A stretch of DNA of 35,139 bases. Source: an uncultured Bacilli bacterium. GTDB lineage: Bacteria; Bacillota_I; Bacilli_A; RF39; UBA660. The stretch is taken from contig CANQFD010000008.1 of NCBI GenBank assembly GCA_947598325.1, forward strand, positions 1-35,139, read 5' to 3'. This document shows, in pieces, positions 24,710-33,481 of this stretch (position 1 is the stretch's first letter; each line of letters starts with the position of its first letter). The notes under the pieces were generated by a model, which was given only the letters and a program-made list of their open reading frames with translations, was not told the DNA's origin and did no database searches. The translations under genes and the position numbers were made by a program.

Positions 24710-24715
24710 TGTATC

Positions 24716-24912
24716 ATTAAGTGATGAAGAAAAGTAGTAATAAATAATTTTATTTAAAGAGAGTTAATAATTGGTGAAAATTAACATTAAAATGTTTATG
24801 AACTTGTTTTGGAGCTTAAACGTTATTTCGCGTTAAGAAAAAGAGTGCATATATTCTATGAAGTAGGGTGGTACCGCGCCTAAGCGTCCTTACATCATGG
24901 GATTTTTATTTT
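24716..24912 (+). promoter_or_regulatory. T-box riboswitch, leucine specifier UUG
   Basis: A complete tRNA-sensing leader. Stem I has GATGAAGAAAAGTAGTAA, the AGAGAG and GGTG apical elements, and a specifier loop GAAC-TTG-TTTTGGAG; the specifier TTG at 24804-24806 codes for Leu. The T-box sequence AGGGTGGTACCGCG lies at 24865-24878. The terminator is a long stem between 24856-24868 and 24887-24900, with one mismatch, followed by GATTTTTATTTTT. Uncharged tRNA-Leu should stabilise the antiterminator and allow transcription of the 118-residue membrane protein gene and leuS. The UGGU of the T-box matches a tRNA ending in ACCA, which fits tRNA-Leu at 33397. Confidence 0.93.
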
Positions 24913-27857: not shown

Positions 27858-27886
27858 TTGACAAAATATAATAGTAATGATATTAT
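27858..27886 (+). promoter_or_regulatory. tRNA-Asn promoter TTGACA-N17-TATTAT
   Basis: Consensus -35 and one-mismatch -10 at ideal spacing; the -10 ends 21 bases ahead of the tRNA. Confidence 0.75.
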
Positions 27887-27907: not shown

Positions 27908-27983
27908 GCTCGATTAGCTCAGTTGGTAGAGCAAACGGCTGTTAACCGTTGGGTCGTAGGTTCGAGTCCTACATCGAGCGCCA
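27908..27983 (+). tRNA. tRNA-Asn (anticodon GTT)
   Basis: A full 76-base cloverleaf. Acceptor GCTCGAT / ATCGAGC, anticodon stem AACGG / CCGTT, loop CTGTTAA with anticodon GTT at 27941-27943, and T-arm with GGTTCGAGTCC. The discriminator is G and CCA is encoded. It has its own promoter and terminator. It lies directly ahead of the AspRS/GatCAB operon, whose products are expected to make Asn-tRNA from Asp-tRNA on this molecule. Confidence 0.97.
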
Positions 27984-27993
27984 TATTGATATT

Positions 27994-28020
27994 AAAAAGT
28001 TCATTATTGAACTTTTTTTT
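27994..28020 (+). terminator. Terminator of tRNA-Asn
   Basis: Stem AAAAAGTTCA / TGAACTTTTT with a TTAT loop and T-run, eleven bases after the tRNA CCA end. Confidence 0.85.
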
Positions 28021-28055
28021 AATAATTATTCTGTAAAATCATATAATATACATGA

Positions 28056-28084
28056 TTGACATTGAAATTTACTTATGTTAATAT
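28056..28084 (+). promoter_or_regulatory. Promoter of the aspS-gatCAB T-box transcript
   Basis: TTGACA (28056-28061) and extended -10 TGT-TAATAT (TAATAT at 28079-28084) at 17-base spacing. Confidence 0.7.
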
Positions 28085-28091
28085 ATTTTTA

Positions 28092-28340
28092 GTTAAAAAC
28101 TTTGATGCAGAAAAGTAATATTAAGATTCTATTTAAGAGAGTCCTACATGGTGAAAATGGATATAGATATTAATATGAAAGAACACTTGCGGAGTTCTCT
28201 TCCTGAAATAATAGTAGGGAAGTAGCGCGATAATTGATGCGTTATTCAAAAGAGTGATCATAGAAATATGATAAACTGGGTGGTACCACGGATATAACAG
28301 TTATTCGTCCCTATATTTTGGGATAATAACTGTTTTTATT
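28092..28340 (+). promoter_or_regulatory. T-box riboswitch with overlapping Glu/Asn specifier codons
   Basis: A tRNA-sensing leader of about 250 bases. Stem I has GATGCAGAAAAGTAATATTAA, AGAGAG and ATGGTG; the helix AATATTAA / TTAATAT positions the S-turn GAA, after which the specifier loop reads AGAACAC before TTGCGGAG. In register with the leucine T-box (GAA, one base, codon) the codon is GAA (Glu); shifted by one it is AAC (Asn). The T-box is GGGTGGTACCACGG at 28278-28291. The terminator is AACAGTTATT / AATAACTGTT (28296-28334) with a U-run. It should induce aspS-gatC-gatA-gatB when its cognate tRNA is uncharged. Confidence 0.92.
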
Positions 28341-28356: not shown

Positions 28357-30111
28357 ATGAAAATAAATAAGTATAGAACAAATATTTGCGGGGAACTTAC
28401 AATATCTGATTTAGGAAAAGCTGTAATATTATCTGGTTTCGTTCAAACTATAAGAGACCATGGTGGAGTTATGTTTATTGACTTAAGAGATCATACAGGA
28501 ATAACACAAGTCGTTGTTCATGATGAAGAGATGCTTAAAGGAGTAAGCAAAGAAACTGTTATTAAAGTAACTGGTAAAGTTATTAGAAGAGATGAAGAAA
28601 CAATAAATACAAAACTTGTAACTGGTGAGATAGAAATTATGTGTGATACTTTGGAGATATTATCAAAAAAAGCAGAAACACTTCCATTTGAAATTGACGG
28701 GATTAATGAGGTAAATGAAGATGTTAGACTTAAATATAGATATTTGGATATGAGAAATAAAAAAATATCTAATAATATGAAGCTTAGAAGTGATGTTCTT
28801 CATTATTTGAGAAATAAAATGTATGATTTAGGATTTATGGAAGTCCAAACTCCAATACTTACCGTATCTTCACCAGAGGGAGCTAGGGATTTTGTTGTTC
28901 CATCAAGAAAATTTAAAGGTAAATTTTATGCATTACCTCAAGCACCACAAATTTATAAAGAATTGTTAATGGTTGGCGGTGTAGATAAATATTTCCAAGT
29001 TGCACCATGTTTTCGTGATGAAGATAGTAGAAAAGATAGAACTTTAGAGTTTTATCAATTGGATATGGAAATGAGTTATGTAACAGAGGATGATGTTTTA
29101 GAAATTGGTGAAGAAATATTCTATGATGTATTTACTAATTTCAGTAATAAAAAAGTATCTGATAGACCATTTAGAAGGATATCTTATAAAGAAGCAATGG
29201 ATAGTTATGGAACAGATAAACCAGATTTACGTAATCCGCTTATTATTAAAGATGCATCAGAAGTACTTAAAGAAACTACATTTAATCCATTTAAAAATAG
29301 TATTATTAAAGTAATAGTAGTAGATGAAATAGGTACTAAACCAAATAGTTGGTTTAATGAAATAGTTGAATTTGCTTCAAGTATTGGAATGCCAGGTATT
29401 GGATATATAACTCTAATGGAAGATGGAAGTTTAAAGGGACCTATTGATAAATTCTTAAGTCAAACAGAAAGAGAATCTTTAATAAAAGAATTTAATATGA
29501 AGACAAATAGTGTAATGTTCTTCATTGCAAATAAGAAATTATCTGTAGCTCGTAAATTTGCAGGTCAAATACGTGATGAACTTGGACGTAAGTTAAATTT
29601 AATGGATCCAAATAAATTAGAACTTTGTATTATTAATGATTTTCCTATGTTTGAATACGATGACAAAACTAAAAAATATGAGTTCTGCCATAATCCATTT
29701 TCACTACCTCATAATGGTATTAAAGAATATGAAAAAGAAAATATAGATGATATTTTAGCTTATCAATATGATTTTGTATGTAATGGTAATGAAATGGCAT
29801 CAGGAGCAATAAGAAATACAGATTTAGATTCTTTAGTTAAAGGATTTGAAATAGTTGGATATAAAAAAGAAGAAGTTGAAAAAAGATTTAATAGTTTATT
29901 TACAGCATTTAAATATGGAGTACCTCCTCATGGTGGAATGGCTCCAGGAATAGATAGAATACTTATGCTTATAAATGATGAACCAAATTTAAGAGAGGTT
30001 CAAGCATTTCCAGCAAATGCATCAGGTGCTGATCAAATGATGGGTTCACCAAGTACTTTGGATGATGAACAGTTAGAGGAACTTGGGTTAGAAATATCTA
30101 AGGAGGATTAA
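28357..30111 (+). CDS. aspS: Aspartyl-tRNA synthetase, probably non-discriminating
   Basis: A 584-residue bacterial-type class IIb synthetase: N-terminal OB domain (1-110), catalytic core with motif 2 CFRDEDSRKDRTLEFYQLD, a bacterial GAD insert, and motif 3 GGMAPGIDRILML. His35 in IRDHGGVMF aligns with the His that marks non-discriminating AspRS (Leu in strict enzymes), so it should charge both tRNA-Asp and tRNA-Asn. The gatCAB genes directly downstream support this: GatCAB would amidate the Asp-tRNA(Asn). Transcription is under the T-box. TTAGGAGGA precedes the ATG. Confidence 0.97.
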   Translation: MKINKYRTNICGELTISDLGKAVILSGFVQTIRDHGGVMFIDLRDHTGITQVVVHDEEMLKGVSKETVIKVTGKVIRRDEETINTKLVTGEIEIMCDTLEILSKKAETLPFEIDGINEVNEDVRLKYRYLDMRNKKISNNMKLRSDVLHYLRNKMYDLGFMEVQTPILTVSSPEGARDFVVPSRKFKGKFYALPQAPQIYKELLMVGGVDKYFQVAPCFRDEDSRKDRTLEFYQLDMEMSYVTEDDVLEIGEEIFYDVFTNFSNKKVSDRPFRRISYKEAMDSYGTDKPDLRNPLIIKDASEVLKETTFNPFKNSIIKVIVVDEIGTKPNSWFNEIVEFASSIGMPGIGYITLMEDGSLKGPIDKFLSQTERESLIKEFNMKTNSVMFFIANKKLSVARKFAGQIRDELGRKLNLMDPNKLELCIINDFPMFEYDDKTKKYEFCHNPFSLPHNGIKEYEKENIDDILAYQYDFVCNGNEMASGAIRNTDLDSLVKGFEIVGYKKEEVEKRFNSLFTAFKYGVPPHGGMAPGIDRILMLINDEPNLREVQAFPANASGADQMMGSPSTLDDEQLEELGLEISKED

Positions 30112-30112
30112 T

Positions 30113-30415
30113 ATGAATAATAAATTTACAAAAGAAATGGTTGATAATTATGCTGACAAATTATTAATTGGTTTAACAGAAGAAGAAAATAAAATGGTTT
30201 TAGATGAATTTGAAATAATTGATGAAACAATTAATACTATAAATGAGATAGAAGGAATAGAAAAAGTAGAACCTATGACACATACTCTTGATGATTTTAA
30301 GTATGAACTTAGGGAAGATGTAGTAGAAGAATCAGTTCCAATTGAAGATTTGCTTGCTAATTGTGATGTACATAATGGAAGAGAAATAGAAGTTCCAAAG
30401 GTGGTGGGTGAATAA
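30113..30415 (+). CDS. gatC: Asp/Glu-tRNA(Asn/Gln) amidotransferase subunit C
   Basis: A 100-residue GatC, the chaperone-like belt that holds GatA and GatB together. Features are the N-terminal helix region with MVDNYADKLLIGLTEEE and the later EKVEPMTHTLDDFKYELRED, matching the family's conserved PMTH segment. It starts just after aspS with AAGGAGGATT upstream, and its TAA stop shares an A with the gatA start. Confidence 0.95.
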   Translation: MNNKFTKEMVDNYADKLLIGLTEEENKMVLDEFEIIDETINTINEIEGIEKVEPMTHTLDDFKYELREDVVEESVPIEDLLANCDVHNGREIEVPKVVGE

Positions 30416-31887
30416 TGAGATATATGAATAAAAGTATAGAAGAACTTCATGAATTATTAGTAAAAGGTGAAGTAACTTCAAAAGAATTAATAGATGAATC
30501 TTTAAAGTTATCTCATAAACTTCAAGATGAATGTAATGCTTTTGTAACTATATTAGATGAAGCAAAAGAAACGAAAGTAACTGATAACTTATTATCTGGA
30601 ATACCTTTTGGTTGTAAAGATAATTATTCAACAAAGGGAATTTTATCTACTGGGTCAAGTAATACACTTAAAGATTATGTACCATTTTTTGATGCAACTG
30701 CATATGAAAAATTAAAAAATGCAGGAGCAGTAATGGTAAATAAGACTGTTATGGATGAATTTGGTATGGGAGGTACAGGTACAACAGGACATACAGGTAC
30801 TGTTAAAAATCCATGGGATAAAACAAGAATGTGTGCAGGTTCATCTTCAGGTTCTGCATGTGCTGTAGCAGCAGGTGTTTATCCATATGCAACAGGATCT
30901 GATACAGGAGATTCTATTAGAAAACCAGCTGCATATTGCGGAATTGTTGGATATAAACCAACATATGGGTTAATAAGTAGATATGGCTTATTTCCATTTG
31001 CTTCATCACTTGATCATTTAGGTGTACTTACACGAAATGTTAAAGATGCTGCAATAGTAGTTGACAATATGAAGGGCATAGATAAAAATGATATGACTTC
31101 TTGGGATTCATCTAATATTCATCTAAAAGACTCTTTAACTGGTGATGTTAAAGGTAAGAAATTATGTTATATAAAAGAAATATGTGATATAAATAATTAT
31201 AAAAATCCATCTAATGAATTAAAAGAACATTTAGAAAATTTTATGAATACAATACAAAAAGCAAAAGAACTTGGTATTGAGGTAGTAGAAGAAAGTGTTG
31301 ATCAAACTTTACTTAATGCTTCACCTGCAGTTTATGTAGTAATATCTTGTGCGGAAGCAACTTCTAATATGTCTAACTTGACTGGAATTATATTTGGTCC
31401 AAGAGGTGAAGGAGATAACTATATTGATATGATGAAAGATCATAGAACAAAAGGTTTTTCACCACTTATAAAAAGAAGATTTGTAATTGGGTCATATGTA
31501 CTTCAATCTCAAAATCAGGAAAGATATTTTAGAAATGCACAAAGGGTAAGAAGATTACTTGTAGATAAATGGAAGGAATTATTTAAAAAATATGATGCAG
31601 TTATACTTCCAGTTGGTTCAGGTCCTGCTAAAAAGTTAGATGGTTCAAAAGATATCTTAACTAAAGAAACACAAGTACTTGAAGAACATTTACAAATTGG
31701 AAATTATGGTGGATTCCCATCAATCACTATTCCAAATGGATTTATTGATAATTTACCTGTTGGTGTAAATATTACAGGTAACTGTTATGATGATGAAAAT
31801 ATACTTAACATAGCATATGCTTTAGAAAGCACAATGCCTTATAAAAATCAAATCGCAGGGATTGTTGGAGGTGAAATGGATGAGTAA
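30415..31887 (+). CDS. gatA: Asp/Glu-tRNA(Asn/Gln) amidotransferase subunit A
   Basis: A 490-residue glutaminase subunit that releases ammonia from glutamine for GatB. The amidase Ser-cisSer-Lys triad is visible: Lys68 in FGCKDNYSTKG, the cis-Ser in AGSSSGSACAVAAG (143-145), and the nucleophile Ser167 in GSDTGDSIRKPA. The usual motif is GSDTGGSIR, so an Asp replaces the Gly just before the nucleophile. The start at 30415 overlaps the gatC stop; an ATG at 30424 is also possible. It overlaps gatB by 8 bases. Confidence 0.96.
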   Translation: MRYMNKSIEELHELLVKGEVTSKELIDESLKLSHKLQDECNAFVTILDEAKETKVTDNLLSGIPFGCKDNYSTKGILSTGSSNTLKDYVPFFDATAYEKLKNAGAVMVNKTVMDEFGMGGTGTTGHTGTVKNPWDKTRMCAGSSSGSACAVAAGVYPYATGSDTGDSIRKPAAYCGIVGYKPTYGLISRYGLFPFASSLDHLGVLTRNVKDAAIVVDNMKGIDKNDMTSWDSSNIHLKDSLTGDVKGKKLCYIKEICDINNYKNPSNELKEHLENFMNTIQKAKELGIEVVEESVDQTLLNASPAVYVVISCAEATSNMSNLTGIIFGPRGEGDNYIDMMKDHRTKGFSPLIKRRFVIGSYVLQSQNQERYFRNAQRVRRLLVDKWKELFKKYDAVILPVGSGPAKKLDGSKDILTKETQVLEEHLQIGNYGGFPSITIPNGFIDNLPVGVNITGNCYDDENILNIAYALESTMPYKNQIAGIVGGEMDE

Positions 31888-33349
31888 ATATAAAACTAAA
31901 ATAGGACTTGAGATGCACTGTGAAATAAGTGAAACTAAAACAAAAGTATTTTCAAGTGCTGCAAACAGTTATTCATCAATTCCAAATAGCAATATAAGAC
32001 CAGTTGATATGGCTTTTCCTGGAATTCTTCCAGTGGTTAATAAAGAAGCAGTAAGAATGGCTTTAATGACAAGTATGGTTCTTAATTGTTCTCAACCAGA
32101 ATATATGTATTTTGAAAGAAAAAATTATTATTATCCTGATCTTCCAAAAGGATTTCAATTGACACAAGAAACTAAACCAATACCAGTTGGAATATATGGA
32201 AAAGTAGTATTTGAATGTAATGGTGAAGAAAAAACAGTTAGAGTAAATAATTTACATTTAGAAGAGGATGCAGCCTCATCAGATCATTTATATGATATAA
32301 CAACAATAGATTATAATAGAGCAGGGGTACCACTTCTTGAACTTGTTACAGAACCAGACTTGCATTCAGCAGATGAAGCAGTTGCATTTTTAGAACATAT
32401 GAGAAGTGTTTATCAATATTTAAATATTTCAGAAGCTGATAGCAAAAAAGGGCAAATAAGATGTGATGTTAATGTTTCTATTATGGATTCTGATTTAGAT
32501 GAAGAGGATCCAAATAATTGGGGTACAAAAATAGAAATTAAAAATGTTAATTCTTTTGGTGGCGTTAGAGATGCTATTAATTATGAGATTAAAAGACAAA
32601 CTAAATTAAAAGAAAATGGTACTTATGATGATATGGAACAACAAACAAGAAGATGGGACGAAGAATCTGGAACAACAATTGCAATGAGATCAAAAGTAGA
32701 TGCTGTTGATTATAAGTATTTTGTAGAACCAAATATTCCTAAATTTAAAATAAGTAAAGAATGGTTAAATGAAATAAGAAAAAATATACCAGAACTCGCT
32801 TATGATAGAAAAAAGAAATATATGAACGAGTATGGGTTAAGTGAATATGATTCAAATATTTTGGTAAAAGAAAAAGATATTAGTGATTATTTTGAAAAGA
32901 GTATTTCAATTGGTACAGATGTAAAACAAGCTGCTAACTGGGTAAATGGTATGATACTTAGTTATTTAAATTATAATGAGATATCAATTAAAGATTTCTT
33001 TATGACTCCAGAAATGTTAAAAGAATTAATTGATTTAATTGAGTCTAAGACTATTTCAAGTAAACAAGGTAAGGATGTTTTTTATAAGTGCTTAGAAGAT
33101 AAGAAAGACCCTAAACAAGTAGTAAAAGACGAAGGTATGATGCAAATAACAGATGAAAATCAAATTATGGATATTGTTAAAGAGGTTATAAATGAAAATT
33201 TAGAACAAGCTAGAACATTTGATCCACAAAATCCAAAGGCACTTGATTATTTCATAGGTCAAGTTATGAAAAAAACAAGAGGTAAAGCTAATCCATCAAT
33301 TGCAAGTAAACTTATGAGAGCAGAACTTGAGAAAATTGTTAGTGAATAA
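31880..33349 (+). CDS. gatB: Asp/Glu-tRNA(Asn/Gln) amidotransferase subunit B
   Basis: A 489-residue GatB, the kinase/amidase subunit that activates and amidates the misacylated tRNA. Signatures are IGLEMHCEI at the start, FERKNYYYPDLPKGFQLTQ, VNNLHLEEDAA, DYNRAGVPLLELVTEPD, and EIKNVNSF; the tail GKANPSIASKLM is the tRNA-binding YqeY-like end. The start at 31880 has GGAGGTG upstream. It completes the aspS-gatCAB operon, which ends in a terminator at the stop codon. Confidence 0.97.
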   Translation: MSKYKTKIGLEMHCEISETKTKVFSSAANSYSSIPNSNIRPVDMAFPGILPVVNKEAVRMALMTSMVLNCSQPEYMYFERKNYYYPDLPKGFQLTQETKPIPVGIYGKVVFECNGEEKTVRVNNLHLEEDAASSDHLYDITTIDYNRAGVPLLELVTEPDLHSADEAVAFLEHMRSVYQYLNISEADSKKGQIRCDVNVSIMDSDLDEEDPNNWGTKIEIKNVNSFGGVRDAINYEIKRQTKLKENGTYDDMEQQTRRWDEESGTTIAMRSKVDAVDYKYFVEPNIPKFKISKEWLNEIRKNIPELAYDRKKKYMNEYGLSEYDSNILVKEKDISDYFEKSISIGTDVKQAANWVNGMILSYLNYNEISIKDFFMTPEMLKELIDLIESKTISSKQGKDVFYKCLEDKKDPKQVVKDEGMMQITDENQIMDIVKEVINENLEQARTFDPQNPKALDYFIGQVMKKTRGKANPSIASKLMRAELEKIVSE

Positions 33350-33396: not shown

Positions 33397-33481
33397 GCGG
33401 GAGTGGCGGAATGGTAGACGCGAAGGTCTCAAACACCTTTAACCTTTGGTTGTGTGGGTTCAAGTCCCATCTCCCGCACCA
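33397..33481 (+). tRNA. tRNA-Leu (anticodon CAA)
   Basis: An 85-base type II tRNA with a long variable arm. Acceptor GCGGGAG / CTCCCGC, anticodon stem AAGGT / ACCTT, loop CTCAAAC with anticodon CAA at 33430-33432, discriminator A and encoded CCA. It reads the UUG codon, which is the specifier of the leuS T-box in this window. Its last bases start a 25-base direct repeat found again at 34806. Confidence 0.97.

Follow-up and report, generated by a model that had tools for sequence, protein, structure and literature searches.

Which tRNA is sensed by a T-box leader whose specifier loop carries overlapping codons for asparagine and glutamate, ahead of an operon for tRNA-dependent amino acid synthesis? 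The question is raised by a 35,139-nucleotide stretch (the window; contig CANQFD010000008.1, positions 1 to 35,139, forward strand) of an uncultured Bacilli bacterium, whose 943 kb genome is 89% complete and which has as its closest named relatives Bacilli of the gut and rumen that are represented by metagenome assemblies. A first-pass annotation, made from the letters alone, had placed a T-box before aspS-gatCAB and favoured GAA (Glu) as its register codon, with AAC (Asn) one base further on. Comparison with related leaders makes it probable that this is a transcription-attenuating T-box sensing uncharged tRNA-Asn via AAC.

The leader is a real T-box riboswitch, as first annotated, with aspS, gatC, gatA and gatB downstream. 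It comprises Stem I with an AGUA/GAA loop E and specifier loop, stem III, a UGGN-ACC bulge and a terminator, and its AAC triplet fits both the tRNA-Asn (GUU) of the genome and the downstream aspS2-gatCAB genes. The elements are:

28056-28084, + strand: promoter-like site of the T-box operon, TTGACA-17-TAATAT with TG (consensus scan, 10/12)
28093-28315, + strand: T-box leader (RF00230; full-length Rfam match, 119.2 bits, E 4.7e-26, gathering score 93)
28107-28110, + strand: GCAG, 5′ strand of the stem immediately beneath the specifier loop (Rfam structure; compensatory changes in relatives)
28177-28185, + strand: 3′ strand of the specifier loop, GAA-A-GAAC-A (sequence; comparison with relatives)
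28181-28183, + strand: GAA (Glu) in register −1, overlapping AAC (also in 21/37 Asn leaders and 14/29 gatCAB leaders)
28182-28184, + strand: AAC (Asn) specifier in the canonical register (3′ register in 7/7 other T-boxes of the genome; 37 Asn leaders)
28281-28284, + strand: T-box bulge UGGU, predicted to pair with the tRNA acceptor end (Rfam structure; tRNA comparison)
28296-28334, + strand: intrinsic terminator hairpin, then a U run (fold −17.9 kcal/mol, z −7.2)

That the element is known from metagenome-assembled genomes alone could suggest a degenerate, non-functional leader with constitutive operon expression through read-through, but the Rfam match spans the full model, the terminator is intact, the core is conserved and the stem shows compensatory changes, all of which render this highly unlikely.

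The loop (28177-28186) reads GAA A GAAC A C, so both proposed triplets are present and overlap, and the choice between them is one of register. The TBDB rule starts at the 3′ end of the bulge and takes bases 2-4 as the specifier (PMC7778990). This 3′ register yields the correct amino acid in all seven other T-boxes of the genome (leuS UUG, gltX GAA, valS GUU, tyrS UAC, pheS UUC, ileS AUC and thrS ACU); on the window leader it gives AAC, with GAA one base upstream. A count that starts at the 5′ S-turn instead (‘GAA plus one’) was rejected, as it misreads pheS (L001) as UCA, not UUC. The leuS T-box of the window had been invoked as pointing to GAA; its loop (GAA-C-UUG-U, then UUUG) is compatible with a register from either side and is therefore no arbiter between GAA and AAC.

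The stem beneath the loop gives the same answer. In the Rfam alignment GCAG is paired with UUGC and this stem ends at AACA; in the window a single C separates AACA from the four-base stem or, alternatively, a U is bulged inside the stem. Across 37 leaders the stem terminates right at AACA or one base further, and relatives carry double changes that preserve it (GTGG/CCAC, CTGG/CCAG, GAAG/CTTC, TGAG/CTCA, GGGG/CCCC and GAGG/CCUC). Our stem-search script was allowed some latitude (five gaps and two offsets), but its result agrees with the independent Rfam structure and we therefore regard the boundary as firm.

The 37 leaders are Asn leaders from the same bacterial family, in each of which the base before AAC was read. 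AAC occupies the same position throughout, whatever lies downstream (aspS2-gatCAB, gatCAB-aspS2, aspS2 alone, asnS or asnA). Sensing of tRNA-Glu alone, with AAC incidental, would fit the 5′ register of the first-pass annotation and the GAA-A-GAA-A loop of the genome’s own gltX leader; given the 3′ register, the conservation of AAC and the lack of GAA in many of these leaders, it is barely credible.

A two-codon T-box deserves more weight, although we judge it unlikely overall. Here tRNA-Asn (AAC) and tRNA-Glu (GAA, by a one-base shift) would both antiterminate, and the operon would answer to either shortage. GAAC is invariant in the window’s own clade (G at −1 in 7/7), and the 3′ strand of the window loop has one base more than its counterpart in the gltX leader and in 19 of the 37 related leaders (GAA-N-AAC-A), so that a 5′ register falls on GAA and a 3′ register on AAC; AG precedes AAC in all 18 loops with this extension. 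Against such dual sensing, the family’s 29 gatCAB leaders vary in the base before AAC (14 with G, 9 with U, 5 with A and one with C), so that 15 lack a Glu codon, and the identical GAAAGAACA loop also heads asnS and asnA operons that lack gatCAB. Extended loops are likewise found before aspS2 alone (L046, L128). The Glu codon is thus, on this comparison, not required in gatCAB leaders, nor does the second codon appear to be kept owing to GatCAB, and the earlier attribution of GAAC to the Glu and Asp routes of that enzyme is not supported. The G before AAC is instead probably a trait of an Asn-T-box lineage with asnS and asnA among its targets, and its presence would not of necessity imply sensing of Glu.

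The four asnS/asnA leaders were retrieved with a pattern demanding the G and so demonstrate existence, not frequency; six of the ten matches to this pattern lay within coding sequence and were not T-boxes. A Fisher test for association of G at −1 with gatCAB (p = 0.10) was set aside on account of this retrieval. Within the same family, T-boxes with Asp codons (L168 and L295, GAU; L174, GAC) precede AspRS of the Leu type, whereas leaders of His-type AspRS carry AAC, so the specifier appears to track the tRNA served by the downstream enzymes, which for the gatCAB set would be tRNA-Asn.

Pairing at the acceptor end bears on both readings. In every genome examined, tRNA-Asn has G73 and tRNA-Glu A73; the genome’s own tRNA-Glu has anticodon UUC with A73. 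The UGGU of the window’s clade would form a Watson-Crick pair with A73 and a wobble with G73, so that both acceptor ends are able to pair and that of tRNA-Glu does so better, a point in favour of dual sensing. Other GAAC leaders carry UGGC, which suits G73 only, and in two of these (L126 and L139) the A73 of the same-genome tRNA-Glu would mismatch, which counts against it. UGGU was rejected as a sign of tRNA-Glu, since Asn leaders that lack a Glu codon can have either U or C at this position. The caution first voiced about the discriminator, that UGGU meets G73 only through a G-U wobble, is correct; it presents no obstacle to tRNA-Asn, because both letters are found among these leaders and TBDB records G-U at this position for Trp leaders (PMC7778990).

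The genome encodes two AspRS enzymes, that of the window with the motif RDHGG and a second (C1:48192-49910) with RNLGG. The His of this anticodon-domain motif (H31 in P. aeruginosa), which the window AspRS2 carries, we take to go with non-discriminating AspRS; PDB 4o2d also has His at this position. His versus Leu holds as a marker in the window’s family but was rejected as a general one, as Clostridia loci pair Leu or Phe with AAC leaders. Searches of the 89%-complete genome for AsnRS, GlnRS, AsnB and glutamine synthetase found none, absences that are provisional. Asn-tRNA is therefore probably made here by AspRS2 plus GatCAB.

Bacterial AspRS enzymes are able to attach Glu to tRNA-Glu in vitro (PMC6523644), which lends some plausibility to dual sensing; it is speculation that a Glu codon before aspS is tied to Glu-tRNA-Glu made by AspRS. 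The gltX gene of this genome is already under a Glu T-box of its own, which weighs against the need for a second.

Sensing of tRNA-Asn, our preferred reading, suggests the following scheme, in which binding, antitermination and enzyme specificity are predictions from sequence. The GUU anticodon of tRNA-Asn would pair with AAC (28182-28184), and a free acceptor end, G73-C-C-A, with UGGU, including the wobble at the discriminator. This pairing would favour the antiterminator over the terminator and allow RNA polymerase to enter aspS2-gatC-gatA-gatB. AspRS2, of non-discriminating type, would produce Asp-tRNA-Asn and GatCAB would amidate it, so that the operon makes Asn on the tRNA when Asn-tRNA is low.

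The operon and its upstream neighbour are arranged as follows:

27858-27886, + strand: promoter-like site of the tRNA-Asn gene, TTGACA-17-TATTAT (consensus scan, 11/12)
27908-27983, + strand: tRNA-Asn, anticodon GUU, G73, CCA encoded (ARAGORN and Rfam)
27994-28021, + strand: terminator hairpin with U run after tRNA-Asn, between it and the T-box operon (fold −8.9 to −9.7 kcal/mol, z −5.1)
28357-30111, + strand: aspS2, bacterial AspRS with the putative non-discriminating-type motif RDHGG (PRK00476, 721 bits)
30113-30415, + strand: gatC (TIGR00135, 44.6 bits, just below the NCBIfam cut-off of 47.1)
30415-31887, + strand: gatA (TIGR00132, 435 bits, below the NCBIfam cut-off of 481)
31880-33349, + strand: gatB, ATG at 31880 (ORF listed from TTG at 31862; PRK05477, 556 bits)

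The operon does lie just after a tRNA-Asn gene, as first described. With a promoter-like site and a terminator of its own, this gene is probably transcribed separately. At the other end, tRNA-Leu(CAA) was ruled out as the operon’s tail, as a promoter-like site and a hairpin followed by a U run stand between it and gatB. This tRNA (33397-33481) matches the UUG specifier of the leuS T-box in the same window (24715-24894); UUG is a rare Leu specifier, at 2% in TBDB.

Relatives show a different order of tRNA and T-box. At two loci (L057:2130-2733 and L060:2160-2752) an Asn T-box, which starts 22 bases after tRNA-Ile and tRNA-Glu and thus lies within a tRNA cluster, has four tRNA-Asn genes starting no more than about 30 bases downstream, and gatCAB-aspS2 after them. 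Their T-box terminators fold at −18.6 and −19.6 kcal/mol, and no forward promoter-like site was found between T-box and tRNA-Asn genes. At two further loci (L050:1242-1657 and L120:1830-2196) a pair of tRNA-Asn genes directly follows the Asn T-box, but the U run ahead of them is weak or missing, and a hairpin and U run separate tRNA-Asn from gatC. L277 was excluded as a further case, having a promoter-like TTGACA between T-box and tRNA-Asn. We tentatively suggest that in these relatives the Asn T-box may control synthesis of the very tRNA-Asn that it senses, the window being a variant with tRNA-Asn upstream under its own promoter and terminator. Such an arrangement would constitute positive feedback, enlarging the pool of tRNA-Asn on which Asn is made. 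Our literature search turned up no account of tRNA genes under T-box control, a weak indication that the arrangement is new; if true, these would be an unreported kind of T-box target.

Other genes also stand behind Asn T-boxes in this set. A tRNA_edit-domain protein (PF04073) is the first gene at L273:207-1104 and L274:285-1184, and a small protein with this domain precedes asnS at L276:1552-2470 (− strand); it is possible that these are trans-editing deacylases under Asn control. A 266-residue ORF without Pfam match lies between the T-box and asnA at L275:217-2320, and an M29 aminopeptidase is found ahead of aspS2-gatCAB in the Asn T-box operons at L059:3733-5998 and L146:1-1498.

Among known systems, the closest parallel is the aspS-gatCAB T-box of Clostridium acetobutylicum, in which Asn and Glu codons overlap and both tRNAs are reported to bind (PMC4052509, in a passage citing Saad 2013), a precedent in the same kind of operon for the two-codon alternative. 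The comparison drawn at first reading is sound: passages in PMC4052509, PMC4206432 and PMC2494555 describe a T-box ahead of a transamidation operon, one of several aspS genes and the codon overlap, all of which recur here. The window, however, comes from another class of bacteria, and in its family the Glu codon shows no conservation with gatCAB and is also found ahead of asnS and asnA. Comparison among relatives is a cheap means of separating a chance codon overlap from a selected one; its result here opposes a link between Glu codon and GatCAB and advises caution over ‘two-codon’ T-boxes called from sequence alone. The genome’s own gltX T-box (G000:C4:8636-8823, L005) has the same architecture and a near-identical loop, but is one base shorter, has GAA (Glu) in the canonical register and precedes gltX; shortage of Glu-tRNA is thus already sensed elsewhere in the genome. 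The Bacillus cereus lysK T-box, which responds to tRNA-Lys and tRNA-Asn (PMC2916919), also lends support to dual sensing as a further T-box with two effector tRNAs, but its second tRNA comes from a mixed Lys/Asn codon box, not a one-base frame shift, and it precedes another gene. Beside C. acetobutylicum, the window leader adds a second, uncultured lineage in which a T-box would control tRNA-dependent Asn synthesis.
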